A program made the translations under genes and the position numbers. Below the pieces are notes generated by a model. The model was not told the origin of the DNA. It saw nothing but the letters and a program-made list of their open reading frames with translations, and did no database searches. This document shows positions 1-64,000 of a DNA stretch of 64,000 nucleotides, one piece after another. Each line of letters begins with the position of its first letter. Position 1 is the stretch's first letter. This DNA is from Deuterostichococcus epilithicus (taxonomy: Eukaryota > Chlorophyta > Trebouxiophyceae > Prasiolales > Stichococcaceae): positions 868,001 to 932,000 of the forward strand of contig JAVTLE010000001.1 in assembly GCA_033439295.1 (NCBI GenBank), in the 5' to 3' direction.

Positions 1-105
1 CTCCCGTCTTGGATTGGCCAAGCGCCCTCATCTCGACTGGGTGCATTGTCAGCCAGCTCCACCCAGACGTCCTGGACCGTAGAGTTGGAAAATTTGAAAG
101 CTTGC

Positions 106-315
106 CTCGGACAGAAAGCGCTTCTGGGAGCGGACATTGTCCATTTCCGCCGCGTCAAACATGGTCTCCGCGGACGTGCGCGCCAGGTCGCCGCTGATGC
201 GCTGCGTGACCTGCGCCCGGCTGCGCTTGAGCGGCGTGCCAATGCGCGGCAGCAGCGGGAACGCATCGTCTGGCGCAGGGCGCCCGTCTTCCTGCTGCGC
301 GAATGCCGACGCCAT
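106..315 (-). CDS. 5' coding exon of an unknown protein (partial gene)
   Basis: A 70-codon open exon starts at an ATG (residues MASAFAQQEDGR) and ends at CGAG|GCAAGC, a near-ideal GC-type splice donor. The frame also stays open past this donor to the window edge. The peptide is polar and partly helical, with a basic patch (PLKRSRAQVTQR) followed by an acidic helix (AETMFDAAEMDN). I do not recognise a family. The remaining exons lie off the left end, so the protein cannot be judged further. It is divergent from the MTV1-like gene and would share the 316-980 upstream region with it. Balanced composition and a clean ATG make it more likely a real N-terminus than a chance frame. Confidence 0.45.
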
Positions 316-980
316 TGCGTGCGGCGGGTTTGATAGTAGCTTCGGCCGGCGCAAGCTGGCAGCTCAGCTGTACGTGAAGTTGATGCAGGCTCCGGAGCTG
401 ATGCCGCAATGCCGCGCGCTCGGGCGCGGTGCTGTCGCCCCTGCCGGCGGTATTGCCTTACACTGCCGGGTGGCCCTCAGCATGACTGCCATGGAGGATC
501 TGGGCTCAGCAACCTGATGCACCGGTGAACCTTGACACTGGGAGTTGCGATCCAACGCTGTGGCTCCTGTCAGTCGATTGTGACCGTGTCTGTAGTATTT
601 AAAATGCCCGGGTGACAAAAGCTGCTCCGACACCTCAGTCGCAATCCAGCAGCATCTTCGCGAACAAGAAGTGTCGAAGGGAACGCCTGCGAGCTGCGAC
701 CCCACGCCAGCTGGTGAGGGCTTCCGGAGAAATCGACATGGGGGTCACGTGAGAATCCTTGCGAACGCATGAAACCGTACTGGCACACGCCCACAGAACG
801 CAACTTTGAGTGAAACAGCTCTGAAAGGGTCTCAGGCTCGTCGACGCATCGATCAGGCCACTGTCGGCATTGCTCAAACTTTGTTCGGTGGATTATTCAT
901 ACCTCTGACAAGCCTTCAGGCTGGTTTGCCACAGACCTCGCATACAACATCAACAACGGACTACAGAGCAGCTCGCAGCC
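316..980. other. Intergenic, shared upstream region of a divergent gene pair
   Basis: No convincing coding exon on either strand. It separates the start of the minus-strand gene at 315 from the start of the MTV1-like gene at 981 and should hold both promoters and 5' UTRs. I see no recognisable core promoter element. Confidence 0.5.
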
Positions 981-3900
981 ATGTTTGCGGCGTTTGGGCG
1001 CATGCGGAAGCTGGAGGAGGCAACGAACGCCTTTGATGATGCCACTCCGAGTGAGGCTTCGCCATTTGATCCCAATCTGTCAATAGATGCGAAATACTCA
1101 AGCGCAAACCGCACGCTACGAAACATGCACCGCCTGCTCCTTGGTCCGTCGTGCACAGGCCCCTCCGTGCACGTGTTGAAATATTGGCACGACTCCATGA
1201 GCCTTGTCTTGGAACCCTGCACCAGTCTATCTGCTGGACGAGCTGGTGGCGGAGGCGCAGCAGGGCATGCAGGAGGCGGGGCACATGGTGGACTTCTGCG
1301 TCAAGCGGCTCACAGCAAAGCCGCCCGTCGTCAAGCAGAAGGTGGCCAAAAGCGCCCAGCCCCGTCGCAACACAAGTTGACATGCGACCCGTCACTCTGA
1401 CAAGTCTAAATGGCCCAGCTTGGCATGGGCGCTCCCATGCATCAGCAACACAACCATAGGCTCTGCTGTCAAGGTGCATTTTTCCGACGACACCACTTCC
1501 CCGCACTGCGCAGACGCTGCGGCTCATCAAGCACCTGTGCAACAAGGGTGCGCACGACTTCCGCCGCGCCTTGGCGCGCCAGTCGACCTGCGTGAGGTGC
1601 GGAACTTCAGCATCGCGCCTGCCTCTATGCTCATCAAGCTTCACTGTTTGCTATTGCACATGCACATTGCTTTTCGCAGGCCTCCTCGACCTCACACACC
1701 GGTACCCAGCATGCAAGCTGTGCATGTCCCAGATGTCCCATCCTTTCTCCTCCTCCTCGAGCCCGTCGCCAAACACGTCTGCACCGCATCACTGCAGGGA
1801 GCTGACGCACTACAAGGGGGAGCCGGACCCGCTCAAAGGGGACGTGCTCAACCAGAGGGTGAGGGACATGGCGAGAGAGGCGCTCGACGCGTTGTTTGGC
1901 GCCGAGAACGGCTACGCGCCCGCCATGCCCGCCGCCGGCCCCCAGCTCACGGTGAGCTTGCAGTTCTGGACACTGCACGAGCACGGCGTTAAATTCGGCG
2001 GCTGGTTTGCTCTCCAGAGCCGGTCCTGGAGACGTCCATCACATGATGTGCACCAGCTTGAGAGTGATTGGGTCACCAAGCCACGAGATTAACGAGACTT
2101 CAGGCGGCTTGTCGCAGCGTATCAAGTTGGAGCCTGCTGCCGCGCAGAACCGCATTCAAGGGTTTGGGAGCACCAACTACAGCGGCGGCGGCGGCGGTGG
2201 CGGCAGGGGAAACGGCGGCAGCGGCAGTGGACATGGCGGCGGCCTGGCCACAGCCGATGGCGTCGGCGGCATGTTGGGCAGCGGCCTTGCAATGGGGCAG
2301 TCCGCGCTGAGCAAGGCCGCAGGCGCGGTGTCCACTGCCTCCAGTGCGGTGTCCAAAGGCGTGCAGGTGGGCAGCAGCGTCGCCTGTGTTCAACTTTGCC
2401 TGTACCGTGCATTCCAGAGGGTGCATGGGGTGTGCTGCCTTTGCGCTCTGGTCCGCCTACCTCTTCCTCCAGGGGTCGCTGTTCCTCTGGGGCCTGTTCA
2501 CTGCGTGAGAAGGTTACAGTCTGTTCACCACGTGCCGCTCAACTTGATGTCGCAGTGCTGCCAGTGATGCATTCTCTTGCACCACAGGGGTTTGGAAACC
2601 CACGATACGAATCAGGCCTCCAGGCGGCCCCCTCATACACGCCGCCCGGCAGCGGTGGTGGTGGCGGCGGCGGCGTGGCATCCCCGCGATGGGGCAGCGG
2701 CATGGCGAGCGCAGCAGGCAGCGCAATCAGCGGCGCCGGCAATGCAATTAGCGGCGCCGGGAGCGCGCTTTCGGGGGCGCTGTCGCCGCGGCACCGCGGC
2801 CGCGGCAGCGAGTCCATGCTCACTCAGGTTTCCATCCTTCTCTCATGCTGCTCATTAGGTTTTAGGGTTCGGGGTCGGCTTTTGATGCGCTTCAGAGGCT
2901 CGTCCCGCTGCTGTTACCGCTTTGTCCACTGCGGAGAAGAGAGCTCAAGATGACCGTTGATCAGTGGCCACTTCACTGTTGGTGTGTGCATGGTCTGTGA
3001 ACCGGAAACTGCATGGGCAGCTGCCAAACTCGGCTCGACACATCACATTGCCTCCAACTTGACATGCACAGTCTCACAAAGTCCACTGCCGGCCCCCAGG
3101 GTCCCGGCTACGACAGTGGCGACGAGGCGTCTGGCGGCGGCGGCAGCGGCGCATCCGCACGGCTGCGTCCCACCGGCGGCTTCGGCGGCGGGAGTCCCTA
3201 CGACGGCAACGGCAGCTCAAAGGGCGCCGTCGGCGACGAGGCGGATTTGGTGGATCGGCTGTGCGCGCCGGGGGGCGTGCGGGCTGTGCCGGGCGCCGAG
3301 GAGCTGCGCACCTTCGTGGAGAACCTGGCGCCGCTGGACGGCCTGGAGGTCGGCCGCCTGCTGGCCGCCAAGATGGTGAGGGAGCTGCCCCATGAGTTTC
3401 GACCTTCCAAATTGTGCACTTGACACAGTTTGGGGGACACTGCCAGGAGGCCGGCCGCCTGCTGATTGCTGTGATGGCGAGAGCGCTTCGAGGTCCAGGT
3501 AGGCCCCAACACCTCTGCTGCTGTGCACCTGGATCTTACACTCGTCTCTGACGCTCGCCTGCCTGCCGCCAAGATGATCAGCAGTTGACTGAGAGACGCT
3601 TCGCCACATTGTGGGCCAATCGAACACGCGGACTTGGGCGGGACCGGCATGTCCGGAAGCAGCAGATTTGTCGTGCGCTGCTCTGCGCCCCAGTTGGCGG
3701 CGCTGCAGGCTCCTTCTCGCGCCATTCCGGCTGCCCCTGGCGGTGACGGCCCGCCCCGCATGTCGTATACGTCGCAGGAAGGACCATCCTGGCAGGCGGC
3801 GCTGCGGGCGCTTTGCGGGCTGGACGCCATTGTGCAACAGGGCTCCTCGGCCGCCTGCGGCGAGGCCGCCGTCTTCTTTCAGGTGACCCGAACTTGCGCC

Positions 3901-6675: not shown

Positions 6676-6947
6676 GGAGTGAGCTGGATTGCTGGATTGG
6701 GAGGCTGTATCTGGTAGCAGGGTTGGTCAGCTTGTCTGCGGGGGAACAGAAGGCCGAGCATAGGCGTCATCGTCACGAACACGCTGCTTTGTGAGATGCT
6801 CTTCCAGCCGCTTCCACGGCTTTAGCAACATCAGCAACACGTGCCATACCTTGCATATTTGTTGCGAGGTGCACTGCATCTTACAGCCTGTTGCAAACTT
6901 GCGGACGCTTGCAAGTGGCTCCTGAGGATACTTTATCAGCAGAACCG

Positions 6948-8740
6948 ATGCCACCCGGTACAAACGGCTCCTTCACAGCGCCCTTCGTCAGGTTGCATCC
7001 TGTTCGAGCAGCAGTCCCCACTGTCAACACGAGAGCTTTGCAGGCACCGCGGCTGTTGTCTAATACCAGAGGCGCTGCCTCACCGTCAAATCTTGGTTCC
7101 GGCTTGCTCTCGATATCACAGCGGCGCCAGGCCAGGCAGCACTCAGCGCAGCGGCCGCGCCAGCAGCCGAACACTACAGCGGTGCTGCAGGGCATATGCT
7201 TCGACAAGGCGTGTCAGGAAGCACAGGACCAGGTCTTCCTGGTGGTCTTGGCGGTGCCGCTGCTGTGCCTGGCAGCAGCAATTGCCTACAACTTCCTCAG
7301 GAAGCCGCCTGCTGAGGTAGGGAGCACCTCCGCAACTGCTACGCTGCCCGATGCGCCACGTAATGGGTCAAGGTTTGACCAACTACCTCCTCCGCAGGGT
7401 GCCTGCACTCCGGTACATCAATCAGAGCGGCAGCAGAGCATGCCATGCGTGGAGAATTTCTCACCCTATTATGCTTCCTGCAGGATTCCGGGGGCTACTT
7501 TAAGGACCCTGAGACAGGCGCGCTGTTTCAGTCCGTTGACGGCAGCGCGCCAGAGCGGGACCAGAATGAGAAGCTGGCCTTCCGGCCGGTCTCATATACA
7601 CCCTGGCCAGTGACAGAAGACTTTGAGGGGGAGCGGGTCCGCATCCGCGTGGGCGCCATTGGCGATCGCCAACTGCGCACCTTCGTGTTTTCCAAGTGCG
7701 CTGATCTCTCACACGGCTGACTGGCTGTGAACTTCACCTTCCAGGCATCAGGTCCCGGGTGCTTGCCGCCAGATCCGAAGGACTCCAGCAATGTGGCTGC
7801 GCAGCCATCACCCAACCTCTCGAATGACCTCTGGTCGCAGGCTGCTGCGGCAGCCCAGCGCAATCGTGAGCACGACGCTGCCGCGGCCGCTAGGGATTGT
7901 CTTCGAGGAGGATGCACCGCGGAAGCGTGCTGTCATATCTGGGTTCACAGACGGCTCGCCCGCGGCGCAGATGGCGGAAGTGCGCAGTGCCCCCCCGCCG
8001 GGGATGACGTGGGGCTTCGGTCTCATGCCCCAAGGGACCCCTTCCAGAAGGTCCAGGATGCAGGCCCAGGATGCAGCACGGGGGTGAGCATGGTTGTGGA
8101 GGAGATGGGGACCCCCCATTCCTGCAGCGTGTCAATGCTCCCGCACCCTCCCTGTGCTGGCCTCCGACCATCGGGAGCCTGGTGTCTGCAGGGCCATGCA
8201 GTGCCAGCGAAATAGAGAACAGTCGCCAAAAACGGCCGGTGGCGCAGGTGGCCAAGCTGGACCGTTCCAGAGATGTCAATGCACCAGCCTTGGGCTGTCT
8301 GCTCTACATATGATAATTTGTATCGTCCCAGCATATTTCATGTCGCAGATGGTCAAGCTGGACCGGTCCAGGGCGGTCAATGCCCCGGCGGTGGGCGATG
8401 TGCTGCGGGCATGCACCTGTACTACCATCGTGTACCCGACGAAAAGCCTGTTTGGCGCCAAGCCGCCGCAGCGGCATATCGTGACTTACGGCGCTGACGG
8501 CGAGATGTGGCCCCAGGCACGCCATTTCTGTTTGCTGTATTCATCCCTCTGCACGGTGATCTGCGCCCTCTCTGAGTAGCCTCGTGCTGCAATCGTGTGC
8601 GAGGCTGCGACTGGTACGGCTGAGTTCAGCGGATAAACGTGCCCCAACTGCAGGTCATGAACGCGCTGAGACGAGGCGATCGGGCAGACGGTGAAGTGAC
8701 GCTGGTGCTTGAGCGGGAGCTGCCGTCACGGCCCAATTGA
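6948..8740 (+). CDS. Membrane-anchored PDZ-domain protein, probably plastidial
   Basis: Five exons: 6948-7316, 7484-7695, 7745-7979, 8349-8516, 8654-8740, about 356 residues. The N-terminal ~85 residues are Arg/Ser/Ala-rich with few acids, like a chloroplast transit peptide. One membrane helix follows (QVFLVVLAVPLLCLAAAIAY). A globular part starts DSGGYFKDPETGALF. The C-terminal half is PDZ-like: carboxylate-loop motif PLGIVFEED, VGDVLRAC before a variable insert, and the closing GEVTLVLER strand. Exon 3 could instead start at 7841, 32 residues shorter, with the frame kept. Intron 4 has a GC donor (CCCCAG|GCACGC). Thylakoid or envelope location is inferred. The family resembles plant and algal plastid PDZ proteins used in photosystem assembly, but I cannot name an orthologue. 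Confidence 0.7.
8242..8400 (+). repeat. Intronic copy of a PDZ-gene exon start, acceptor included
   Basis: The exon 4 start with its acceptor (8342-8400) has a degenerate direct copy 100 bp upstream at 8242-8300. GCCAAGCTGGACCGTTCCAG in the intron matches GTCAAGCTGGACCGGTCCAG in the exon, and similarity continues through GTCAATGC(A/C)CC. The preceding CGCAG acceptor is duplicated too. Confidence 0.85.
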
Positions 8741-11384: not shown

Positions 11385-14300
11385 TCAGGCCAGGTAGACC
11401 TGCTTGACGTCGGCAGCGCCAAAGGCGGCGCCGCACCCCGGGCACTTGCGGTGCCGCGTCTCCAGGTTTTTCTGGATGCACTGCTGGCAGAACAGGTGCC
11501 AGCACTTTGTGATGATGCAGTCCTTCTGGCGCGCGTCGCACACGCCGCACCGCAGCAGCTTCCGCTGCGCCGCCACCTGCAGAAGTGCCAGACGTTTCGA
11601 ATGTCAGGACTGTGAAAGATTTGTCTTGAGGGGCATTGAAGCAAGGTCTGGGTGGCAGCGCCGGAACACGGAAATTGAAGCATGCTCTGTGTGGCAGCGC
11701 CGGAACACAGAAATGCAGTGGGCAGACAGTGGCCTTGAAGGGCTTGTCGTGAGTGGTAGCAGCTGCGGCAAGGCGCCCAGCCGACACCGCATGGTTCCTG
11801 AATTGCATGGTTTATTGCAAAGCGCGCCTCGTCTCGGAGCACGGCATCTGCGCCTCCGGCGGAGTCGAACTTGCGCAGCCGTTCCAGTTTCGCCTGCAGC
11901 CCCTGCAGCAGCACAAGGTTCGGAGTTGTTCAGAGTGGTTCCGGGCTGCGACTTTTGGGCAAGCGGGCGCAGCGTGCTGCCATGCACAGCGACGCCCCAC
12001 AGGTGCCTCCCGCCAGTGTCGACCCCGTTGGAACCCCGGACACAGCGCTGGACACCTCAGGCGCGCCTGCACCCCAAGATCGGTGTCATCCTAATTTTGC
12101 GTCTCATGACTCGAGAAGAGTTCAGAAGAACCCACCTTGTGATCCTCCTCCAGGCGCTGCCGTTTGGTCTTTTCCCGCGACGCCCGCTCCGCCTCATCGT
12201 CGGCCTGCCGCTTGGCGGTCTCAGCAGCGGCCGTGGCGGCTTCCGCCGCCGACCGCCGCTCTGTGAGTGCCGCGTCCCGTTCGCGCGCCTCCCGTTGCGC
12301 GGCCTCGAGCTGGGCGCCCACGTGGCGCGCCGCCTGCCGCGCCGCCGCCGCCTCGTCGTTCAGCGCCTGTCGCACAAGGGATAGGTCACCGTCAGTGTTT
12401 GCCATGTCGAGCACCGTTGTCAGTGGTGACCTTAGAGGCAGCGGGGATTGATTGCATGCCTGCGCCTGTCGCCCGCCTCGCTGCCACCGCCTGTTGTCGC
12501 AAAGCACAGCCCGACCTCGTCACAGTCGGGCAAGAGGTGGCACTGTGGCGCCGCGTTCAAGTCTGCATGAAGTGCAATCTCGATTCAAGCACTTCGAAGC
12601 TGTGCCCCCCAAGGCGACCCAGCCGCCGAGCCCGGCTGCATCAGCGACCTACGTGCTGGAGGATGTCTGTCCCTGCTCGACATGTCTGCACCCGGGGCTG
12701 CTGTGGCCGCGAGAAGCTGCCGGCACAGCCACGACACCAGGAATGCACCCAGGTGCTCGTCTTTCCGACTCATAAATTCCTCCTCCAGCTTTCGCTCGTG
12801 TCCTGCACCTCCCGAGCTTTGCAACCGCAGCTGTGGCGCTGCACCCGGTGACCCGCTCCTGCGGGCTGCCGGCAGCAGGAGCGGGTCTGCCGGCCGCAGG
12901 AGCGGGTCTGCCCCGCTCTTCGACTCTTCCCTGTCACTGCTTTGCAACATCAAGAGGGCTTCCTGCTTCCTACCTGCAGCTGGCGCTGCAACCCGGCGAC
13001 CTGCTCCTGCAGGCTGGCAGCCGCAGCCTGCGCCTCCTTCGTGCGGACGCCCGCCCGCTCCGCCTCCGCCACCGCCTCCTGCGCCTGCTGCACCGCCTGC
13101 ACAAATGAGGTTCTGCTGAGAACGCGGGTCGCAATGGACTTGAAGGGTCATATAATGAATCCGCGGTCTTTCGAACACTGTGACAAGGCGCCGACCCCTG
13201 CTGCACCGCCTCCTGCGCATAAACAACTGCTGTGCCACCTGCGGCGGAGGGGCCGGGACATCCTCAGGCTTGCAAAGAGAGAGTTCCTCCTGCGTGCTTT
13301 CTGCACCGCCAACCGCGCGGGACGCCCAGACCATGTGTCCACATATGTGGGTCAAGCTGTGCTAGAGGCCTCCTCGTTATGGAGCAGGGAGGAACATGGC
13401 GCTGGCATGCGTGCCATGCCACATTTGCAAGCTGACCACCTAGGGACCCGCCCGCGTGCATAGAACTCCATGCCACAATCATTCACCGGAACCAAATGCT
13501 GGGGGCGCGACAAACATCGTCAACAGCGACTGCGCGTCTATTGTGCAAGTCGCTGCTGGACCGTCCCCACGCCCACAGCCTGCCGGTCCAGGTGCTCTGC
13601 ACCGACCCTCTTCAAAGGTTTGTCCAAGTACATGCTCAAGAGTTGCGGTGGCAAAACCCTGCCTTGACGCGCTCCGCGACCACATCATTGTTGACGCGGT
13701 CGTTGTCAGCCAGCTGCGCCAGCAGCCGCCCGTTCTGCCCCTGCATGTCCTCGTAGGCGGCGCCTATGGACTCTATCTCCGCAATGTACGCGTCGCTCTC
13801 CTCCTGCGGCAGATGAGATGATCATATGAAAGCGAGGGTTTGAGGTAGCAGATTGGTGCCGTGCGTGTCCTGCCCCCGCATGCCCTCGAGCGCGACGCCA
13901 CTGGGTTCCATCTCCGCGATGCATGCGTCTGATCCCTTCTGCATGGGCAGGAACACCAGTTCCTATTGGCGTTGGCGGCGGTGCGAGATCCAGCACTGAT
14001 GGTGTCCTCACACGCGGCGACCATCAGTGTTTTGGGTTTTAGGGTTTAGGGTTCGCCCATGAAACAATCTCCACTCTCTGCAATGCACACGTCGCTGTGC
14101 AGGATGGCAGAAACAAGAATCAGCGCGGCTAGTGTGCACTCAGGGCGCCTCGGCAGCAACGGCCAGCGGCACACGCGGCTCGAGCAATGCTGCAGCGCAT
14201 TCTGGCGCCGCGCCTGCCGCAAGCCAGGCACCCCCCGCCCCTCACCACGAGTGCCAGCCTCTCTCCTGGTGCATGGAAGTGACGATTCTTCCCTTTATTC

Positions 14301-17300
14301 AGCGTTGCTGGGGTTCGCCCCCCTCGATGGCGTCCAGCTGGGCGCACAGCTTCCCCTCAGCGCTCCTCGTGGCATCTTCAGCAAGAATGTCAGAAGGCAG
14401 AACAGCTCTCCAGTACCTTGGCGGCGGCCAGCTGGGCGCGCAGGTCGGCGATGCTGGACTGCAGGCCCACGGCCTGCGCTGCGAGGGCGTCCCGCTCACG
14501 GCGCAGCGCCTCCTCCGTGGCGGCCGCCGCTGCCTCCGCCTCCGCCAGCCGCTCGGACGCCGCGTCGCGCGCGCTGCCGTTGAGCTTCGCCGTCGCCGCC
14601 TGCGCACATGCGGACGCGGCAGCACATGATGCGGTGCTTGCGTGGCTCGAATGCGGCAGCGCCGTGCAGCTGCACACCCGCAGATCGGCAACCATGTACG
14701 GGAGGGGTCTGACAGGGGCAGCTGGGGGCCATGGCGGAGCAGTGCCAGCCGCTTTCGAAACTCCGATCTACTTATCAAGTTCGGCTGGCTGTGAGGTTTT
14801 GCTTGTGTGTGTCGTCCCACCTGCAGCTCCTTCTTGAGCTTGGCTTCGCTGGCCCGCAGGTCCGTGGACGCCTGGCCGTCGTCCACCGCCCGCAGCGCCT
14901 CCACCTGGATACGAGGTTACAAGGTTGGTTGATCATACAAACTGATGCAGCTGTCGCAATGCGACTGTCTCACCGGTGCGAGAGCGGCAGAGGTTGCATC
15001 GTGAACGGGCTTGGGTGTCTCCTTGTGTCCCCCCCCCAAACACACAATGCTGCGGAGCCGCCCGAGCTGCAGCTTGACACCCACCGGACGCTGAACAGTC
15101 CCAGGACCTGTGACCCAGGCAGGTGGCGCGAAAACCTGCGCAGCTCCCTGAGGGTGCACTGCGGTTCAGGGACGACGCGCACAGCCCCGCCAAGGTGTGG
15201 ACCGGAAAGTCTTGCACGCCCTGCCCATCGGCGCTAGCAGCGTCCCTCGTGGCGCTGGGATCCTGATACCAAGGCGGGCAACAGAATGAGGAGGCGGCAC
15301 GGCCCGAGCACCGCTCCCACCATGATGCGCAGGTCATCTCCGGCGGCGGCCGCCTCCACAGCCTCGGCACGCAGGACGTCCGCTGCGCTTTTCTGCTCCG
15401 CTGCGCACGCCTCCGCCAGCCGCACCGCCTCGTCCCGCTCCTGCAGGCGGACGAAGCAGGGTTTGGATAAGGCGCATCAGCGAGGGCGGCACCACACGTT
15501 GGCACCCTGGCCTTGTTCTTGAGTCCAGATCATCCAGACTGGCACACTGGCAACAAGCTCTGCAGTGGGTGTGGCGCTGCCGCTGGGCCGATGCTCTGTG
15601 TGCCCCCGTGCCCGTCATGGCCGTTCATGCCACGTTGCATTTGGTCTGTGTCTCCGGGATGCCTTCTGCAGGGGTGTCCTCCATCGGGCTAGCGAAGCAA
15701 GTGCGGGGGAGCTGATGTATGCTGCAAGGGCAGGCGCCTGCGCTTTGTGCCTCGCCTTGAGCGCGGCTCGGGCGGCGGACGCCTCCGCTGTGAGGGCCCC
15801 GGAGGCGGCAGCGGAAGCCCGGTGCCGCGCGACCGCCACCTCCAACCCCTTGTTCTGCTTCTGCAGCGTCGCCAGCATCGCCTGCGTCCCGGGAAACAGT
15901 CAGCGGTCGGCATCCTCGCCCACACCCACGCTGGCACTGAGCTTGCGGCATTGCAGAGCCGCCTGGAGTGTGCTGCTTTTTTGCAGCAGTGCTGCAAGGA
16001 CGCATGCGCTCAGGCCTGTGAGCCCTTCACAGCTTTGCAGCTGTTGAAAGCCCAAGCACCGTGACCACGCAGCCCTAAGTAAGACTTCGTTGCCATGCAC
16101 GTGGCGGTGCTGGCCGCTCTCGTTCATGCCAGCAGCATCCGTCAACCAGTCCGAAAAGTGCGAAAGCAGCTACAGCCGCTCTCGATTCCCATGTCACACC
16201 GGAAGGAACGCCGGTGTTCCCAGCGCCAGGCTTGCAATGCACTCGATGCACCATGACAGTCCTCCAGCACCCTCACAACTCCTCCTCGCCTGCCCTGCGC
16301 GAGGTCCCTGGATCCTCACCTGCATTTCGGACACCGTTTTGTGGGGGGCGCCGGCGGCGGCCGAGATCGCGTCGCGCTGCGCGGAGTCCCGCTCCTGCCG
16401 CGCCACCTGCAGCGCTGCCGTAACCTCCGCGAGGCGCGCGTCGCAGTGCGCTAGCTGCGCCCGCGTGTGCTGCGCCTGCTCCACCTGTGCGCATGACGAT
16501 TGGGGTTTAGGTAGACTTTAGGGTTTAAGTCTAGGGTACAGGGGTTGTTGCCAGACCAAGACCAGCAGGAGGACACCTGGGGGCGTGATACAGGCATGGA
16601 CCCTCGAGCGCTGTCCAGAGGCTGTGCTCTGAGGCCTGGAAGCGATGCTGGCAGGGAGAGGCGCGGGCCCATGTGCAGGCGCTGGTGCAGGGACAGTTGT
16701 TAATCCTAGATCCTGACAGAGTCTTGACGTGTGCGGGCGATTGGGGTCGACAGACACAGAGCGGAGCGCGCCTGCATGAGCAGGTCATGGTCGCGCCGCC
16801 GGAAGCTCTCCAGCTGGTGGTGCAGCCCGTCGATGATGCCCTGCTGCCGGTCCAGCTCCGCCAGCATGCCCTGCAGCAAGAATGCGGGGCTCGAACCTCT
16901 CAGCACCGACGCATCTGGGTCGTGCACCGACGGTTGCGGGAGGACCAAGCAGGAAGGCAGCAGACTCTGTTGGCCTTTCGTCTTGCCCGCACAGCGCCGC
17001 TGTTGCCCGCGGGAGGGCACGCTGTGCACGGCGAATGGCAGCCCGCAAGCAGCAGTTCACAGCGACTGGCGGCGCTTGCAGCTTTCGCCTCCCCACGGAG
17101 CGTGCTGCACACGCGCGTCTGCCGGGTCGCTCCCGCCGGAGAGCGGGCTCAAGATACGGAGTGTCCGAGGACGTGCACGCGGTCACACGGCGCCCGCAGC
17201 AGCCGCGCACACCTGGGCTCGGCGGTCCAGTTCCCGGTACAGCCGCGAGCCGGCGACTGCCTCATCGACCTTCAGCCCCGACTTCAGGGCCCGCACCTCC

Positions 17301-20108
17301 CTGCATCAGTGGGACCACAGAGGCGTCACCTGCCAGCCGCCGTGCACTGATGCACGCCTTGGTGTGGCAGCGCCCGCAGGCCAGAGTTCAGCGCCCGCCC
17401 CTTCCTGCGCGCCTTCCCTTCAATGCTAAGTGTGTGCCGCTGTCATGCCAGATGCCAACACCGGGCGAAGGTTCCGGCTTGTGCATGCAGGAGATTGCCA
17501 CAACCACTTCGCCGGCCGTGCGTCCATTGGGGCGGCGCACGGCCCCCAAAGGCACATGGGGAATACCACATGCGGGTGCATGCGCAACAGGGACATGCAC
17601 CACTGGCTGCACGTGCAGCCGGATTCCCTGTCGACCGTTCCACACAGGGGAAATGACGGTTCCGATGGCAACCCACTTCTGCAGCTTGTGAACGGCGTCG
17701 CGCTCCGCGCCCACTTCTGCCGTTCTCCTATCCAGCAGCTTCATCGTCTGCTCCGCCGCCACCGCCGCCTCTATCTCCGCGACGCTCTGCCCCGCGTTCG
17801 AAGCCTCCCTGCGCACGTGAGGCGCCGCAGTGTGTTGAGGCGTGTCTCGTGGCACGACCGCCGCGCCCAAAGGAGGCGATTGCTCGTGCCCGACCCCAGC
17901 AGTCGCCCCAGCGGACATGAGTGCAGCCCTCGGCATGTGAGGCAACTGCCTGTGGCAGCAGCGCCCCACACCAGCGGGCGGTCTCCAGGCCCGGCGCGCT
18001 CACCGCTTGACGGCATTTGCGGGCGGGGCGGGCGCGGCGGCGCCGGCGCCGGCGGCCCCGGCCTCCTGCGCGGCAGAGGACGCCGTGCGAGCCATGACCA
18101 GCTTGCGCTGCGCGGCCCGCAGCTCCTCGCACCGGTCTGCCAAGTCGTTCTGCAGGTCCTGCGCAAGACAGGGAGGGAGGCTGCACGCCGTCAGCTCGAC
18201 ACCCGTTTGAGTGCTCGCCTGACCACAAGCTACAGCGGCGTGCAGCGTGCTGCAGCAGCCCCGCCGGGTCGGTCTGCAGGTCCTGCACTCGAGAGAGTGA
18301 GGCGAGCCGTCATCAGGAAGCTCGACATGACCAGCTTGCATTGCGCGGCCCCGCAGCTCCTTGCAACAATCTGCCGGGTCATTCTACAGGTCGTGCTTGA
18401 GGAAAGAAGGGCCGCCTCAGCTCGACTGCTTGACACGAACTGCCCTGCAGGTTCTGCATAGCTGCATGAGCAAGTTGCAGGCCGTCCAGCTCCTTCGTCA
18501 ATCAGCTACTTGGTGTGTGCGCCAACAGTGTATATGGTTGCTCACCTTGATCTGCGCCTCCTGCTTCATTGCGTGCGAGTTAGCCTGCTTCAGCTGCGCG
18601 TCGAGAGCGCGGCGCAGTGCCGCTCCTGCATCTGCCGCCGCCGTCAGCCGCTCGCACTCTGCGACAGCAGAGCGACCTTCCATCTCCAGATAAGGGACCA
18701 CTAACGCTGTGTTGATTCGATAAACTGCACATGCTAGTGCTGGTGCACATCTCAGCACTGACGAACTGTTGAACAACAATTTTGTGAACCCCGCCGGTGC
18801 ATTGCCCTGCGGGCGATACACCCTTCAGCACAGCATCCCGACTGAACCTTCCAACACCCTGAAATTTTATCCAAAACATACCTTTCTGCAGCTCCTCGAC
18901 TCGCTGCACTGCATCTGGCGGGCCCGCAGTCTCTGATTGTTGCCGCGCAGCGTCGATCTGCTGCAGCAGCGACGCTAGCGCGGCACTGGTCGCCGCCGTG
19001 CGGGCGCGCAGCCGCCGCTCGACGTCCGAGGCGCAATCGTGCAGGTCCTCCTGCCGCTCGTCAGCCTCCTGCGGTTTCAAATCGGAATTTTAATGGAATG
19101 CAGTTGCAAGAGTGGGATTGGAATGGACGCACGGGAGGCTCGCGCAGGTGCTCCTGCTGCTCGTCAGCATCCTGCAGTTATGCAAAACATGTTTTGAAAC
19201 GGCGCTCATGGCGGACTCTGAGATGAGAGCATGGGGGGCTCGCCACAAACCCGACGAGTTTCCAGCAGTTTGGACATTGGAGGCGTGGGACTTGCCAACT
19301 CGACAAGCTGGCATGGTCTGGGGTATGGGTGCTGGACCCTCCGCCAGACAACAAGTACGTCTCCCTTTCCTCCGGACAATGCAACCCGACAGGGGTTCGA
19401 ACCTGCTTCAGCCTAAGCTTCTTTCCGCCCGACACAGATGTTGCCCGCCTCTGCAGCAGCGCTCACGAATGGGTCGAACATGACGAAATGATGCGAGTGC
19501 GAGATGCACAAACATTGAGGAGGAGTGGTAGCATCCCGAAGAAATGCACCTTGCCCGCCTTGGCATCGCCGTGCAGCAGCGCTCGCAGGTACGGGTCCGG
19601 CGGGACATCGTCATCCGCAGCCGCGAGGTTGTCCGGCTGTGCGGCGACCGCGTCGCCGTCCGCCGCATCATGGCCTGGCCCCTGCAATTGAGCGGTGCCG
19701 GGCATTTGATGTCTGCATGAGTAGTGCGAGCAGTAGCTGCACTCGCAATTGCAACCGGCAGAAGGACAAGGAGTTTGAGAGAAAGGAGTTTGAGAGAAAA
19801 CAGCAGTCATTGAAAACAGCATGGCATGTGCAATGCATGTCGGTCAGTGATGAAGCGTAATTGAGGCAGACCTTAGTGGCTCGGGTGGCAAGGGCGCTGA
19901 TGTCGTCGTTGAGCTGAGACCAGAGGCTGTTGACGGTCAGCAGCGTGTCGGCGTAGGTGCCCTGCCTGGCTTCCTGCGCCTCGATGCGGCCTTCCAAATC
20001 CGTGATCTGCGCGCGCTGTACCTCGAGCTGCGCCGACAGCTTGCCATTCTGAAACTGCAGCGTCTGCAGCTTTTGCTCGGCCTTGGCCTTCTCTGCCTCG
20101 GTCGACAT
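11385..20108 (-). CDS. BRE1: BRE1/HUB-type E3 ubiquitin ligase for histone H2B
   Basis: Nineteen minus-strand exons: 20108-19872, 19681-19550, 19068-18882, 18676-18546, 18158-18004, 17808-17677, 17300-17213, 16870-16772, 16484-16320, 15881-15738, 15440-15321, 14904-14821, 14599-14417, 13803-13663, 13096-12974, 12788-12738, 12366-12136, 11902-11828, 11576-11385. Predicted 889 residues, very close to plant HUB1/HUB2. The N-terminus (LQFQNGKLSAQLEV, then LTVNSLWSQLNDDI) is the family's conserved start. Ala/Glu/Arg coiled coil fills the centre, with the conserved IESIGAAYEDMQGQNGRLLAQLA block. A C-terminal C3HC4 RING (CGVC, CWHLFCQQC, KCPGCGAAFG) ends the protein. It monoubiquitinates H2B in the nucleus with a RAD6 E2 (family knowledge). 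Four introns use GC donors. The boundaries of exon 16 (12738-12788) are the least certain. Confidence 0.93.
11635..11712. repeat. 39-bp perfect-length tandem duplication in BRE1 intron 18
   Basis: Two adjacent 39-bp units (11635-11673 and 11674-11712) start ATTGAAGCA and share GGCAGCGCCGGAACAC. They differ at only a few positions, so the duplication is recent. Confidence 0.9.
12834..12912. repeat. Inverted and direct repeat in BRE1 intron 15
   Basis: GACCCGCTCCTGC is followed by its reverse complement GCAGGAGCGGGTC, which is then repeated directly. The block 12844-12879 also resembles the neighbouring exon segment 12991-13026 (ACCCGG.GACC.GCTCCTGC core), so it looks like an exon-derived duplicate that was further rearranged. 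Confidence 0.7.
13741..14104 (-). repeat. Two intronic copies of a BRE1 exon start (acceptor side of exon 14)
   Basis: Exon 14 plus acceptor (13741-13810) recurs degenerately at about 13868-13945 (shared CATCTCCGC.ATG.A.GCGTC on the + strand) and partly at 14066-14104 (TCTGCAATGCACACGTCGCT). Offsets are about 125 and 190 bp. Intron 13 also carries, at 14320-14356, a copy of the donor-side end of exon 13 (CCAGCTGGGCGC.CAG). Confidence 0.75.
14031..14055. repeat. Interstitial telomere-like tract
   Basis: TTTTAGGGTTTAGGGTTCG, preceded by TTTTGGG, is embedded in BRE1 intron 13. The unit is the plant/Chlorella-type TTTAGGG repeat. Confidence 0.6.
16503..16537. repeat. Interstitial telomere-like tract
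   Basis: Imperfect TTTAGG/TTTAGGG units in BRE1 intron 8 (GGGTTTAGGTAGACTTTAGG and what follows). Confidence 0.5.
18092..18434 (-). repeat. Long degenerate tandem copies of BRE1 exon 5 boundary in intron 4
   Basis: About 110 bp spanning the start of exon 5 and its acceptor (18093-18206) recur at 18326-18430: ATGACCAGCTTGCGCTGCGC versus ATGACCAGCTTGCATTGCGC, continuing through GCAGCTCCT and GCCTCAGCTCGAC. A third, partial copy lies between them (18263-18296, GTCTGCAGGTCCTGCA). Spacings are about 126 and 111 bp. This is the clearest case in the window. Confidence 0.9.
19028..19596 (-). repeat. Intron 2 of BRE1 carries copies of both flanking exon boundaries
   Basis: Exon 3 acceptor side (19028-19072) is copied at 19136-19178 (GCTCGTCAGC.TCCTGC.G shared, offset about 105 bp). 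Exon 2 donor side (19546-19596) is copied at 19437-19474 (TTGCCCGCCT and GCAGCAGCGCTC shared). Confidence 0.75.
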
Positions 20109-30349: not shown

Positions 30350-30394
<45 letters not shown>

Positions 30395-45300: not shown

Positions 45301-47666
45301 TCTTTGATGTCCATCTCGCAATACCGCAGGTTCTCCGAGTCCTGCATTGGGCTGCGGGACTCGGAGCCAGGCTTGAGTGGGGTAGTCAGCGCAGAAGTCG
45401 CAGGCACAGGAAGGAGGAAGAGTGAGGCACCATGCAGCTGCCGGCGGTGTCGGAGGCACGCATTGGTGCACAGCAAGCGCTATGGCGAGACGGATGCTGC
45501 CGATGACACGCAGCTCTGACTCAAGGGATGCACAGCCTCAGCCGCTTGCAGGCGGGCGTGGACACCTGGATGGAGAAGGGCTTGCGGCCGACCAGCATGA
45601 CGAATGCGACGACGCCCAGGCTGAAGACGTCCATCGCGGGCTCGTGCGGCCCGTCATGCACCACCTCCGGCGACACGAAGCCTGGCGACCCCAGCGCCCC
45701 TGCGGGAGACACTGCCGTGATGCAACACCAGTGATTGGGCGGTGTGCGGCGGCGCTGCGCGCCCCAGCGTTCTCGCATTCGACCGGCGTGCGGCTGGCGC
45801 GCGTTCGCGGCGGCCACCGGCGGCGCCGCAAGCTGTCGGACGCCAGCGAATCGCCGGAGTTTGCAGGCCGCCGAGTCCCCAGAAGTAGGGTTCGCGAACC
45901 GCATCAGGCAGCATGTAGATCGTCCGGCAGGACTGTGTGCCAGCACTCCACGGGGCCAAGCCGCACCCACGACGGGCTTGTCTGGGTTGTACAGCACGCT
46001 CATGCCCAGGTCGATGAGCTTGATGGCGGGCGCCCGGTTGTTGAGCGCCGCGTGGTGCGGGTCTTCGACGAACACAAAGTTTTCGCCCTTGATGTCGCGG
46101 TGGATGATGCCGTACTCGTGCATGAATGCCACCGCCTCCGCCATCTGTCGCGCATGATGGGGTCATGCATGTGAATTCTGAGATCTTAAAGGATAGGATG
46201 CTGTCTGGCACGAAGGGCCGCCGCCTCCGCCATCCGTGCGTTGCACAAGTGTGATGGTGGGTACATGGCAGGGGAAGGGTGCACGAGGCAGGGGCGCTGG
46301 TTGCCCTGGGGTGCCGGCATGTCCATGCAGTATTGTGCGGCAGGGAGGGCGATTGTGTGCCAGCAACCATCCGGCGTGCGGCACTGCCAGATGAAGGATC
46401 TGCGCGCCTGAGCAAAGATGGCGGCGGCGCCCTGCTCGGAGTAGGGCTCCTCGCTTCCGCCCAGCCGGTGCAGGGAGTCATACAGCTGCCCGCCCCGCAG
46501 GTACTCCAGCACCAGCACCTGTGAAGTTTGGCAGGAAGCTATACACAAAACAGATACGATTCGCAACATTTGAGGTCCTCCTGGTGCCTTGCGGCGCCTG
46601 TTGGAGCCACGGAGCATTGCCGCGCCAAGGCTTTGCACAGACCCTGCTGATGCCGCCAGCTTCGGTTCTGTGGCGCCAATGAAGTCACACCCAATGTTGT
46701 GACATCGTTACCAGATGCTTCACACAATCACACAAGATGATAGCAGCAACACAGGGGCGCCGCACACAGTGTTCACATGCCGAGTTCGGGATCCCACCTG
46801 CTGGCGACCGTCGTCGATCACCTCCATGCACTCCACGATGCGCGGACTGTCCAGCATCTGGAGGAGATCTGCCTCCCTGCCATGCCCGGAAGAGACTGTG
46901 TCCTTCTCTGGAACTGGTTGCCGGAGAAACCGGCTTTGTGAGAGCAGTATTGAAGCACAGTATGGAGAGGCGACAGCCGGTAGGGCCATGCTGCGCATGG
47001 CGACACAGAGTCCTAGACCTTCGCCACGACGCCCTGCCCCGCCGCGCATGCACAACGTCTCGGCACGCACCGGCGCATAACCGCAAGGTGCTCGTCGTCC
47101 ATGTCGGGGCTCTGCAGGTAGACCACCTTGAGCGCGGCCAGCTTGCGGGTCTGCTTATGTCGCGCCAGCACCACCTGGCTGAAGGCGCCCTCACCTGAGG
47201 GCAGCAGTGGGCCTCATGAGAATGGCGCATCGGCCAAACGAAAGTGACGGACCTGTTAGGCCGGTTGGCAAGAGCTTCAGATGAAAGCCTGCACATGTCT
47301 GTTCTTCTGGTGCAATACCAGCGGCGCCCTAGCAGGGCAAGGTCTGTGCAACATCGCCCGATGGGGCGACCCTGCCTGCCTAATTTCATTCTGAGCGGAC
47401 CGCGCAGGTTCAAAGGCACCATCTACCGCATGTGCTTTGTGCCGTGGCCAGCTCAGCGGATGCAATACCAGCAGCAGTTCGCTCAGCATGTGACCCCTTG
47501 TACGCAATTTACATGCGCCATGCATGGTGCATGTCGCGGTACAGATGTGCAGGGAGCTGTGAAGCTGCGCACCCAGGTCCATGACGACGTCCCACTGCTG
47601 GCGGGCGGGGTGCTTGTCCCACACCATCCAGTCCTGCAGCGTCATGCTCCCATCGAGGACGCACAT
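42317..47666 (-). CDS. CAMK-like Ser/Thr protein kinase, C-terminal end unresolved
   Basis: Kinase-domain exons joined in frame: 47666-47573, 47194-47071, 46876-46798, 46518-46408, 46144-45967, 45699-45566, 45341-45277, 44989-44905, 44560-44447. Tail exons: 43571-43336, 43168-43022, 42474-42317. Motifs: P-loop VMDLGEGAFSQVV, lysine in AALKVV, catalytic loop HRDIKGENF, DLG in place of DFG (LIDLGMSV), activation segment ALGSPGFVSPEVV (SPE for APE), and DVFSLGVVAFVMLVGRKPF. The N-terminus is short, so the kinase domain starts near residue 28. The tail is Ser/Gly-rich (SSHGGSAYS, SGRFSRLRSRGSN). Overall pattern is closest to calcium/calmodulin-dependent-type kinases; no EF-hands were seen. One intron clearly uses a GC donor (TTTGCTCAG|GCGCGC). 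Exons between 43.6 and 44.4 kb may be missing, and the final exon lies below 42317. Confidence 0.8.
42904..43061 (-). repeat. Intronic copy of a kinase tail-exon end, donor included
   Basis: The exon end with its GT donor (43013-43061 on the + strand) is duplicated 109 bp away at 42904-42953: GGCGCTGCCGCTGTGGGAGG in the intron versus GGCGCTGCCGCCGTGGGAGG in the exon, with CCCACCTGCTG and GTCCGCCAG also shared. Confidence 0.9.
43316..43329. repeat. Short telomere-like motif
   Basis: ATTTTAGGGTTTGAG lies in a kinase intron right beside a splice donor. Two near-units only, so this could be chance. Confidence 0.3.
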
Positions 47667-55169: not shown

Positions 55170-56432
<1,263 letters not shown>

Positions 56433-60250: not shown

Positions 60251-63200
60251 TCAGTTCCGCTGCTCTGCAATGTAGAGGTCGCGCACCGCCCGCGCTGAGA
60301 TGCGCGAAATCAAGCGCTCGCTTATCTTCGGCAGCAGCTCCGTCGCCACCGCCGGCAGGAAGGGCGCCAGCTCTGATATCTGCACAAACGGTTCTGGGCG
60401 ATCTGAATCAGCAATCTGAATCGCGACTGGCATGGCCAGGGAGTTCTCATGCCAAGAGCGCTGCCCGCTCCATGGCGCGGCGCCTGTACGCGAGCTTCCG
60501 GGCAGGCGGGCCTGCGCACAGGGCTGCAGCTGGGAAGCACCGCGATGGAGCGCGTCGGGCGTACACACGCCAGACAAACGCTGCAGAAGCCGCGGCCCGC
60601 GCACCAGCGAGGGCAGGGAGGCCGCCAGCGCGCGGATGTCGCCGCCCTGGTTGACGGCAGTGGCGCCGCCCGGCAGTGTGCGGCTGGTCGCCGCGCCGTC
60701 GACTGCGCCGCCGCTGCCAGTGTTGCCTGCGCCGCCAGAAAGCGCCAGGCTTCAGTGCCGGGCAGCCACTGGGATGCTGTGGGCAACCTAGTCTTCATCG
60801 CTGCCGACCGGAGACCCTGCAGCCTGCGCGACGTGCACAGGCGAAGCGCCTTTGCATCCGGAACACGAGCCCCTGCGCGCACGGACTGCGACTGGGCAGC
60901 ATTCCTGCAGAGCTACGGCAGTGCAGGTCTCGGAGGCCAGGAGGGTTTGAACCCTTAGGCAACATGCCTGCGAGGAAATTGGTGATGATGGCCACATTGG
61001 CGATGACGCGCTCGTCCTCCCGCGTGGAGGGCGGTGCCAGCGGCACGCTGCGCCGCGTCGCGCCCGGCAGCAGCTGCGGTATCTGTGCAACACGAGGACC
61101 GCGAAGCATCAGCTTCAGCAGCAGCATCAGCATCAGCATCAGCATCAGCTGGCTTCCAGTGAACACTACACGAACGCACACTCGAACGCTGATTCAGTAT
61201 GGCTGTCGGCAGCAGCTGTGGTATCTGCGCAATATGGGAACCGCGGAGCATCAGCTGGCTTCCAAGCCAACGCTGCACAAACGCACACTTGGACGCTGAT
61301 CCGACATAGCTGTCGGGCATGTTCCAGCAGCCGGAGTTGTGTCGTTGAAAGTGCAACCCTGCACACGTGCCCACCTGCAGGTGCTGCAGGCCAACAGTGG
61401 TCACGAGGGCACGGAACTGCTCCCGCGACAGCGCGTCGATGCTCTTGACCAGCTCGTCCATCAGGAACTCCCTGCGCACGCGTCCAGGGTTTACAGTTAA
61501 GGGCTGCAGTTGGGTCAGGGAAAAAACGCGCACAGGCCCATGCTTGTGCGTTGCTTTTGGGCCTGGCCACCCCAGCGACCCGATGGCACAAGGCAGCTGG
61601 ACGGCAGCACGAGCGATCATGGTGCATGAGCGCCGTGCACCAACCAGACTTATGGCAGTGCAGCAGTCCCATGTGCACTCACAGAGGGTTTTCAGGCAAT
61701 CACCACAAGCGCACCGGAAGACGGCGCCCTGGGGGGAGAACATAAACTTGAGTGCTTCACGCGCAGGCGCTGGCTCGATGGCGCTGGCGTCCCGTGCCGC
61801 TGGGCCTGCCGGCCATGCGGCGCCCTCATCTGGCAGGAAGCTGATGGCACCGCCCAGCAGCGCCTGGGAAACAGGTGACCATGTCCAGGGTTTGTCGGTT
61901 TTCGCAACCCCGACAACGAGGTTGGCGCCTGCGCGGCACGTCTCGTCCGACGGCTATCTGGTGGAAAACGGACGCCGCCTCCTAGCAAGGAGCTGCAGGG
62001 AGCTGCTGCCACCACTGATGCAGCTGATGGTGGCGTTGCGGCCTCCCTCCCCAACCTCCAGTCATCGGAATCACCCACAGGCTGCTTGCCACGCCAACAT
62101 GCCACACAAGACGAGCAAAAACAGCTGTTACCTGGAGCGGCGGGGGGAGGAGCAGCGCTGCGGCAGGGGCCCCGAGGAAGGCCGCCGGCGACGGCAGCGG
62201 CAGCTGGAAGGGCGAAGCCGGCATGCCGAACGGCGACGGCCAGCCACTCAGGCCGCCCGCAGGGGCGGGCTGCTGCTGCTGCTGCTGCTGCTGCAGGGCG
62301 CCCTGTTGTCGCTGCTGTTGCTGCTGCTGCCGCTGCTGTTGCATCTGGCTCATTGTCGGGCTGCTGCAGCGGAAGGGAAGATGTCTCGTCGGCTGCCAGG
62401 ATGACGACCAGTCCGAGATGCAGGACTTGCAATAAAAAAGTCGATTGCGCTGCAAGGGGAACAGCGGCCTGACGAGTGCGGCAGACAGCGCATATGCATG
62501 GCCGGACAATGCATGGCCGGACAATGCATGGCCGGACAATGACTAGTGCCACAGGCACCCAGTGCCACAGGCAACCGGTGCAACAAGAGGATGCTGCCGC
62601 GCGCCTGGCTGCTGAGGTGGCGCCGCCGGCGGGCAGCAGGCTGCCCTGCGCGGAGGTGCTGGCCACAGAGAAAGTCTCCAGCGCTTGGAGAAGATCCACC
62701 ACCCGCTCCGCGTCAAACAGCTGCTCCTTGCCATAGATCTGCGCAGCCGATATCACAAGGGTTGTCAGCTGGGGCGGCCGCTGGGAACACAGCACAGCGC
62801 GCAGCAACTGATGGCGGTCAGCTGGTGGAAGCGCATGCAACCCAGGGGCGCACTGCTGCTTGAATCGCCCCTGACATGCAAATGCATGAGCATTGCGGCT
62901 GCAGCCGGCACATCCATAAGAGTGGAGAAACCCTGAACCATAAACCTGAAGCCTGCGGCGCACCATGTAGCGCAGGGCCTCCTGCAGGCGTGGCGAGTCG
63001 TCGCACAGCAGCCGCTGCGCCACGTATGGGTACGCCTCGTCCACGATGGCGAAGTCTGCGGCCGCAGGTGCAGGTCCCACTCGCTTTCGCAGACTCTCTG
63101 CTCAACGCACTGACGACTGCACGCTCTCGCAGAAGCAATCTGCCCTAGCACCAGTGTCGCCGCCAAAGTGTGGCCGTGTACCCCGATGCCAAGGGTCTCT

Positions 63201-63919
63201 CCCCCCCAGGCGACGGCGTCAACACACGGGCGCAGATCCTCGAGGCCTTGCACGACCGTTGCAGCAAGAGGTTTTCAGTACATTTGGACGGTCGGTCCAA
63301 GAGGCTGGCGCAGGCAGTGCGGGGGCCCAAAGTGGAGCAGGATGTGGAGAAGAGCCTCTCAATTTCAGGTTCAGGGTTTCCAGGGTCTCAACAGGCAGTG
63401 CGCACCAGGGTCGCCCACGAGGGCGATGCCCTCCAGGACGCCGATGGCGCGGATGATGAGCGCAAAGTAGGGCGGGATGCGGAAGGGGTAGTCGAAGGTG
63501 ATCTGCGCCAGGTCCGCCGCCAGCTCCTGGAAGTTGATGTTCTTTGCGCCGCCGCCCTCCAGCGCCTGGTCGAACACCTGCGAACACGGACGAGGGAAGG
63601 GCCTGAGACTGGGCCAGAAACTCGTCCCGGTGTCTGGTGTTGGTGGCGCCGCCGCCGCCTGCGGGGATGGCGGGCGTGGTCGGGCGTGGCACCCAGTGCC
63701 TCAGAATCGAGGGCGTCCCTCCACGACGATGCCTGGCCTTGCGCTGGTGCCCTGTTGCCCCAAGGAGGGCGAGTGGCTTGCTGCAGCGCAAGGAAGGGCG
63801 GCCAATCCAGCGCATGGCCGCTGCGTACCTTGGCCAGCACTGGCAGGATGGGGCGCAGGTCGGTGCCGGGCGGGATGAAGTCCAGTGTCACAAAGTCCTG
63901 CACGATGGCCTCGTAGTCC
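60251..63919 (-). CDS. ABC1K: ABC1K (AarF/ADCK-type) plastid atypical kinase, C-terminal part
   Basis: Nine exons are inside the window: 63919-63829, 63577-63406, 63055-62964, 62738-62605, 62363-62132, 61863-61715, 61471-61375, 61081-60971, 60379-60251, about 402 residues. The gene continues past the right edge, so the catalytic motifs are missing here. Diagnostic text: VQDFVTLDFIPPGTDLRPIL, FDQALEGGGAKNINFQELAA, DYPFRIPPYFALIIRAIGVL, FAIVDEAYPYVAQRLLCDDS, ALKFMFSPQGAVFREFLMDE and LSREQFRALV. It resembles ABC1K1/PGR6-type proteins of plastoglobules, which influence prenylquinone and tocopherol metabolism. A Gln-rich insert of about 77 residues (exon 62363-62132) interrupts the conserved part. 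Two introns use GC donors (CCAG|GCGCGC and CTC|GCAGGC). Confidence 0.92.
61063..61319 (-). repeat. Tandem copies of an ABC1K exon boundary plus hexanucleotide repeat in an intron
   Basis: The acceptor side of the exon (61063-61110) recurs at about 61204-61255 (GGCAGCAGCTGTGGTATCTG versus GGCAGCAGCTGCGGTATCTG). The adjoining intron block 61147-61209 recurs at 61255-61319 (AGCTGGCTTCCA, AACGCACACT and ACGCTGAT shared, offset 108 bp). A (CAGCAT)n run at 61117-61148 sits between them. Confidence 0.85.
62264..62346 (-). repeat. CAG/CAA coding repeat, polyglutamine in ABC1K
   Basis: Mixed CAG/CAA codons on the minus strand give two Gln-rich blocks separated by GAL in the ABC1K insert. Confidence 0.8.
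62496..62540. repeat. Three perfect 15-bp tandem repeats in an ABC1K intron
   Basis: GCATGGCCGGACAAT occurs three times head to tail with no mismatch. Confidence 0.9.
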
Positions 63920-64000
63920 CTGCGGCGGCAAAGTTGCGCTTCAAAGGTGCGCTTCAACAGCCAACAGAGGCTTCAAGGCAGGAGCGCAGTGTCCCCCGGA

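Follow-up and report, generated by a model that had tools for sequence, protein, structure and literature searches.

Introners, near-identical introns present in many genes, illustrate how duplication can shape intron sequence, and short tandem duplications arising from patch repair of breaks or nicks in plants have reportedly been described by Vaughn and Bennetzen in 2014 and by Schiml in 2016. In rice, insertions arise most commonly by tandem duplication, with a share that starts at 70% of events, falls beyond 125 bp and reaches 5% by 200 bp, and such duplications are attributed to repair of adjacent nicks (PMC7971508). Work on other systems describes small tandem duplications formed at breaks through Pol alpha-primase (PMC8355091) and a tandem duplication across an intron-exon boundary of a potato RdRp gene that made a new intron (PMC4974935); the mechanisms have been reviewed (PMC3443670). 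Exonize classifies degenerate, intronic and inter-boundary exon duplications, which across 20 eukaryote genomes affect more genes than do full-exon duplications (PMC12343006). Here, we analyze 64 kb of the green alga Deuterostichococcus epilithicus (positions 868001-932000 of contig C1, in an assembly of 46.8 Mb and 21 contigs; hereafter, the window), in which introns carry degenerate direct copies of the ends of adjoining exons together with their splice sites. The observation is real, both in the window and beyond it. These relics probably derive from ordinary short tandem duplications that happened to span an exon-intron junction and whose spare copy was removed by splicing.

A first-pass annotation of the window had proposed that its introns resemble their own flanking exon boundaries. 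We addressed this proposal in 314 kb, comprising the window and 25 other 10-kb stretches of the genome (given L-numbers, such as L009, L012 and L013); eight 3-kb loci, L001-L008, were excluded throughout. The window has a GC content of ~62% and is intron-rich. Genes were predicted, without transcript support, by a two-strand hidden Markov gene finder trained on the same DNA, which returned 60 genes, 901 exons and 841 introns, and learned a donor consensus of CAG/GTGMG and an acceptor consensus of YGCAG/G. Introns of 70-700 bp with both exons of at least 40 bp (511 of the 841) gave 1022 comparisons with their own flanking exons. At a score of at least 20, 13 of the 1022 matched, compared with 1 of 10,220 comparisons with exons of other genes, none of 1022 with the reverse complement of the own exons and 1 of 3722 with exons that belong to the same gene but do not adjoin the intron. 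Across the sample, introns thus match their own flanking exons more often than they match random exons, as the annotation had anticipated. Relaxing the cut-off to at least 16 yielded 29 own matches in 27 of the 511 introns, where ~4 introns would be expected from the other-gene rate, and 4 of 1022 in the reverse-complement control.

The 29 copies share a characteristic spacing and position. Their offsets have quartiles of 101, 115 and 136 bp, in agreement with the 100-150 bp first suggested, and range from 40 to 180 bp, with 28 of the 29 between 73 and 180 bp and a single copy at 40 bp. Donor-side and acceptor-side copies are almost equally frequent (14 and 15). The median distance between the matched exon stretch and the splice junction is 3 bp, as compared with 24 bp in 75 chance matches taken at the same cut-off of at least 16 with masked letters barred from matching (P = 3e-7). 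Introns with a copy scoring at least 18 are also longer than others (median 325 bp, n = 16, versus 213 bp, n = 475; P = 1e-5), an excess of ~110 bp that is close to the offset and that bears out the proposal of intron lengthening.

Short direct repeats are equally evident when gene models are ignored. Ungapped self-alignment of the 314 kb (lag 25-1500 bp, score at least 18, low-complexity matches removed here as in all repeat counts) found 155 direct repeats, as compared with 2 after local shuffling. The repeats concentrate at lags of 50-150 bp. The 155 include those of L032, a satellite-like array; without it, at a score of at least 20, successive 100-bp lag bins hold 19, 28, 5, 2 and 2 repeats, and lags of 300 to 1500 bp hold 15 in total; 50 kb of Escherichia coli, taken as a control, gave 1, at a lag of 852 bp. 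Outside L032 and at that score, direct repeats (51, lag 40-600 bp) far outnumber inverted ones (7, within 600 bp); counted by locus, inverted matches number 29 overall. The 47 non-satellite repeats at lags of 40-300 bp are divided between the window (11) and the other 240 kb (36). Degenerate direct repeats ~50-150 bp apart are therefore a property of the sampled genome, of which the window is typical. In a neutral simulation with a flat distribution of unit sizes (4026 exon-intron and 2241 intron-only detections), the range of lags was broader than that observed, indicating that unit size is a real property. The sequence is GC-rich with many GCA and GCC runs, and in a few of the 47 pairs both copies lie within a single predicted exon (L023, L030), as might be expected if the matches reflected chance, low complexity or protein repeats. 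With low-complexity matches removed, however, the shuffle, reverse-complement and same-gene controls rule out this explanation for the set as a whole, and we give it a negligible probability.

How could such copies persist in genes? We propose that tandem duplications of ~70-180 bp arise all over the genome and, given typical sizes in the sampled genes of ~100 bp for exons and ~200 bp for introns, would often span one junction. The resulting tandem would hold the exon end and its splice site twice. Use of the outer site, that is, the first donor or the second acceptor, would restore the old message exactly, leaving the spare copy in the intron, where it would be unseen by the protein and free to decay as non-coding DNA. 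Duplications within an exon, or with the opposite geometry, would harm the protein and be lost. The exon copy being conserved, the relic should stay recognizable longest in its exonic part and splice site, and the intron would grow by about one unit per event. At the DNA level, size and orientation point to break or paired-nick repair, as in plants, and the original unit presumably filled the whole lag. No new machinery is needed, only a known type of duplication filtered by splicing. Several parts of this scheme are seen directly in the data, namely the lag peak of local direct repeats, the own-exon excess, abutment on junctions, the geometry, non-coding decay and the longer introns.

The geometry is particularly informative. 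Among the 47 non-satellite pairs, 21 are compatible only with a copy hidden in the intron, 3 only with the opposite arrangement, 4 with both and 19 with neither, whereas random relocation gives 9.4, 8.8, 1.2 and 27.7, respectively. If the two geometries were equally likely, 21 of 24 hidden would have a probability of ~1e-4. The 47 pairs are partly non-independent, as arrays in L012 and L015 contribute several; dropping overlaps leaves 42, with 19 hidden, 3 opposite, 4 both and 16 neither. On gapped alignments, 27 of the 47 pairs were listed as junction-spanning, of which one lacks an exonic part, another is a base away from the boundary and a third sits at a gene end; ungapped matches give 25. 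L032 was excluded from the gapped, junction-pair and geometry sets. The surviving geometry is what selection through splicing would leave, because the outer splice site restores the message. Together with the own-exon excess and the abutment on junctions, it sustains the annotation's view of duplication across junctions followed by decay of the spare copy.

Another possibility is that selection maintains the copies as alternative or mutually exclusive exons. Many do retain AG or GT, some are predicted as exons (L022 4307-4372 and L013 9889-9923), and the relic is better preserved than intron sequence. Mismatches between exon and relic, however, are spread near-evenly over codon positions 1-3 (55/293, 50/295 and 69/291, or 0.188, 0.169 and 0.237, over 879 sites), showing that the relics are not conserved for coding. 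Moreover, gaps in some copies would break the frame, and splice dinucleotides show about the same retention as other bases (in a table read by eye). We therefore regard selected alternative exons as improbable.

Several observations weigh against a simple history of junction-spanning tandem duplication. First, similarity spans only about half the lag (median 0.49), ending soon past the splice site. Second, flank similarity is 8.43 versus 7.59 in the null (4 of 300 null values reach it), whereas a one-rate tandem simulation gives 10.9-13.0; agreement requires intron bases to diverge at 1.5-2 times the rate of the exon relic. Third, intron-only pairs cover 0.87-0.99 of the lag in 4 of 10 cases and 0.41-0.66 in the other 6, some of which sit at multiples of an array's period. 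Fourth, of the 25 junction pairs (such as L013 9767-9934), only 1 is at least 93% identical, as compared with 24-36% in a constant-rate simulation; assembly collapse, recombinational loss of near-identical copies or an old burst are possible reasons. Fifth, a count by category shows no clear excess of exon-intron pairs (18 versus 17 expected at random), with 12 intron-intron pairs versus 19.6 and 8 exon-exon pairs versus 5.9. This count includes 14 L032 pairs, and its thresholds hid junctions near match ends, hence the geometry count; taken together, the two counts indicate that duplication is general and that splicing decides what remains. Finally, the greater length of copy-bearing introns may be partly a matter of ascertainment, as longer introns have more room for a copy, and the gene models, which lack RNA support, are in places misled by the duplications themselves.

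A rival reading is that a piece of ~50 bp, containing an exon end and splice site, was instead copied ~50 bp away, by templated insertion during break repair or by template switching. Such spaced copying would account for the short aligned stretch, which covers about half the lag, and for the near absence of similarity in the flanks: in the gapped set, flank similarity is 7.96 versus a null of 7.59 on the intron side (21 of 200 reach it) and 7.87 versus 8.00 on the exon side. It would also fit a 95% identical pair that matches over just 41 bp at a lag of 127 bp, and the low coverage of the six intron-only pairs. Conversely, the other four intron-only pairs are near-complete tandems, several junction pairs run on into the intron with gaps (by eye; L029, L012 7136 and window 18093), and the copies in the MTV1-like gene are equally spaced. 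Templated insertion, moreover, should often invert, in contrast to the strong bias toward direct repeats outside L032. On balance, spaced copying seems unlikely, albeit a more serious contender than selected exons, and tandem duplication with splicing of the spare copy remains our preferred explanation.

Can such duplications also create introns, as the first-pass annotation had suggested? Among 829 introns of at most 1000 bp lying away from stretch ends, we compared donor and acceptor surroundings and sought cases in which intron length equals the lag. Two candidates scored at least 20 (0 of 16,580 shuffled), PDZ 8248-8348 (score 31) and L013 7441-7579 (score 24), each with length equal to lag and matching junctions. 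In both, however, the gene finder seems to have called the upstream 'exon' in error, and both copies resemble acceptors. In the PDZ-like protein, 13 aligned homologues hold the duplicated stretch once and continue as the downstream copy, without the upstream piece. In L013, the predicted extra exon is a 17-residue insertion, seen as an alignment gap, relative to 3nyb ('Poly(A) RNA polymerase protein 2', which we take to be yeast Trf4), and the true intron is therefore probably longer and contains the relic. Both candidates are more plausibly relics that lie within a longer intron, upstream of the true acceptor, and with only 2 of 829 introns having the required structure, intron creation by duplication is very improbable here. 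The annotation's mechanism is thus mostly right, with intron lengthening supported and intron creation unsupported. Its further remark that nothing explains the pattern was too strong, because a known class of short tandem duplication, combined with selection and splicing, yields it; the category count, moreover, finds exon-intron pairs at about the number given by random placement.

Within the window, we checked individual junctions by shuffling each intron 500 times; because a match was already known when each junction was chosen, this is a check and no blind survey. The names MTV1, BRE1, PES and ABC1K are tentative labels taken over from the first-pass annotation. Pfam matches comprise ENTH (MTV1-like), ELO, RING (BRE1-like), Tic22, protein kinase, and hydrolase plus acyltransferase (PES-like); 3 of the 10 pieces scanned drew no Pfam hit (the remainder of the MTV1-like protein, the BRE1-like start and the initial 163 residues of ABC1K-like). 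The best named match of the PDZ-like protein is from Apatococcus lobatus (56% identity), and three unnamed matches score higher. Fifteen of 16 junction tests outside ELO pass, the failure being the ABC1K-like donor at 61375 (481 of 500 shuffles reach its score), whereas all four tested in ELO fail (449-500 of 500). Of the seven genes originally named, MTV1, PDZ, BRE1, PES, the kinase and ABC1K accordingly stand and ELO drops out; a weak relic in Tic22, absent from that list, can be added. The MTV1-like gene has two relics of one exon end at equally spaced offsets (101 and 201). BRE1-like has six relic-bearing introns (offsets 135, 94, 104, 233, 103 and ~147-148; all 0/500), one PES-like intron holds relics of both flanking exons, the second weak, and a 50-bp repeat in ABC1K-like is mostly intronic but takes in the acceptor. 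Coordinates are collected in the table.

Table. Functional exon boundaries, their intronic relics and telomere-like tracts (window coordinates unless an L-number is given; the last column gives the number of 500 intron shuffles reaching the score)
Gene or element	Feature	Position	Strand	Score	Shuffles
MTV1-like (ENTH)	Functional exon end, donor 3375/3376	3338..3386	+
MTV1-like	First relic of exon end, offset 101, donor GT now GC	3439..3487	+	23	0/500
MTV1-like	Second relic of same exon end, offset 201	3556..3581	+	18	0/500
PDZ-like	Intronic relic of acceptor and exon start, offset 101	8240..8303	+	36	0/500
PDZ-like	Functional acceptor (8348/8349) and exon start; 13 homologues continue as this copy	8341..8404	+
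BRE1-like	Relic of exon end with donor, offset ~147-148	12816..12878	-		0/500
BRE1-like	Functional exon end with donor	12965..13026	-
BRE1-like	Functional acceptor (13803/13804) and exon start	13732..13807	-
BRE1-like	Relic of 13732..13807, offset 135	13867..13942	-	29	0/500
BRE1-like	Relic of exon end 14416-14443, offset 94	14322..14349	-	18	0/500
BRE1-like	Functional acceptor and exon start	17273..17304	-
BRE1-like	Relic of 17273..17304, offset 104	17377..17408	-	20	0/500
BRE1-like	Functional acceptor (18158/18159), exon and intron parts	18093..18202	-
BRE1-like	Partial relic, 124 bp from matching start 18139, repeat family D10	18263..18295	-
BRE1-like	Relic, exon and intron parts, offset 233	18326..18436	-	45	0/500
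BRE1-like	Functional acceptor and exon start	19037..19076	-
BRE1-like	Relic of 19037..19076, offset 103, partly called exon by gene finder	19140..19179	-	30	0/500
Tic22	Relic of exon end 23849-23881, offset 146	23995..24027	+	17	2/500
PES-like	Relic of acceptor and exon start 33312-33342, offset 113	33425..33457	-	21	0/500
PES-like	Weaker relic of exon 33941-33985, offset 126	33815..33860	-	16	2/500
Kinase	Copy with donor, 90% identical to 43012-43062, offset 109	42903..42953	-		0/500
Kinase	Other copy with donor; gene model runs through both, either donor possible	43012..43062	-
Kinase	Relic of acceptor and exon start 46120-46148, offset 88	46208..46237	-	18	0/500
ABC1K-like	Copy of acceptor region 61065-61114, offset 142, 86% identity	61207..61256	-		1/500
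ABC1K-like	Same intron, second nested duplication: copy of 61141-61209, lag 107	61247..61316	-
TTTAGGGTT	Telomere-like tract sites	window 2861, 14038, 16517, 43318; also L009-L012, L016, L017, L019, L022

Other repeats and features of the sampled DNA deserve mention. The array in L032 (~880-2180) has a period of ~52 bp, with copies both direct and inverted. An intronic tandem array of 119 bp in L012 (7817-8293), with copies ~88% identical, lies in a relic-bearing gene, and two introns of one L012 gene share further similarity. Single N bases in the assembly at window positions 4276, 6547 and 51439 (located by eye) hint at possible mis-assembly of near-identical tandem copies. Two paralogous genes in the window, 40288-41262 and 48953-50552, lie ~7 kb apart and are 43% identical over 201 residues; their shared region has one predicted intron in one gene and four in the other. 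The extra introns show no duplication trace in the intron-exon and intron-creation tests, and either intron loss or gain is possible.

Sixteen occurrences of a telomere-like tract, TTTAGGGTT, were counted at 15 sites of the 314 kb; every one lies in a predicted intron and none in an exon, against an expected count of 0.0 under an order-2 model. Contig C1 begins and C3 ends in stretches filled with TTTAGGG repeats, which are thus the genome's telomere repeat; among the matches listed, short internal TTTAGGG tracts are scattered along C1, C3 and C4. Genome-wide, there are 619 exact 14-letter matches to the telomere repeat and none to a reversed control. In mammals, short internal telomere tracts mark repaired breaks (PMC2246262), which suggests, by analogy, that introns of this alga may record break repair.

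There are several broader implications. First, the relics are a countable footprint of a mutational process that is normally hidden in genes, and offer a direct way to ask how introns grow. Second, the surviving geometry, 21 to 3, amounts to a natural experiment on which duplications splicing can mask. Third, if confirmed, the relic-bearing introns would provide ready material for work on decoy splice sites and on the lengthening of introns in an intron-rich alga. Finally, annotation calls for caution, since relics can cause gene finders to predict false exons and spuriously short introns, as in the PDZ-like and L013 genes. More speculatively, splicing may act as a shield that makes junctions the place in genes where short tandem duplications accumulate; buried exon ends could then lengthen introns stepwise, keep usable decoy splice sites, feed splice-site shifts and alternative splicing, and account for a measurable part of intron length. 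We put this generalization forward tentatively, as a possibility that is less likely than not.

The copying process looks like one of known type, and its clear trace at intron edges is instructive. Among the open-licence papers listed by literature searches, none was a survey of junction-spanning duplications in green algae, and none offered directly usable Chlamydomonas mutation-accumulation data or work on paired nicks. Unlike introners, no sequence is widely common to introns of different genes in the algal sample: among 840 introns, only 6 between-gene pairs were found at E <= 1e-3, of 22-42 bp, and no intron belonged to more than one. As in the class defined by Exonize, exon pieces have been duplicated into introns, and junction abutment and geometry, for which the available Exonize account gives no such measure, are measured in the alga (PMC12343006). 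Novel intron positions in Drosophila likewise involve local duplications of exonic sequence with splice motifs, but there the duplicate becomes the intron, an outcome unsupported in the alga (PMC2891723). The potato RdRp case is similar in that one duplication runs from the 3' end of an intron into the beginning of the following exon; it differs in yielding a new intron and a new exon piece, whereas the algal spare copy was swallowed by an old intron (PMC4974935). The closest parallel appears to be with the patch-repair duplications of rice, which share with the algal copies their direct orientation, a unit mostly below ~150-200 bp and a genome-wide spread (PMC7971508). With the offset taken as the unit, 28 of the 29 algal copies (73-180 bp) fall within the size range of this class, under ~125-200 bp. 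The rice events are young, whereas the algal copies are old and decayed, and it is their size and orientation that point to a similar cause (PMC7971508).

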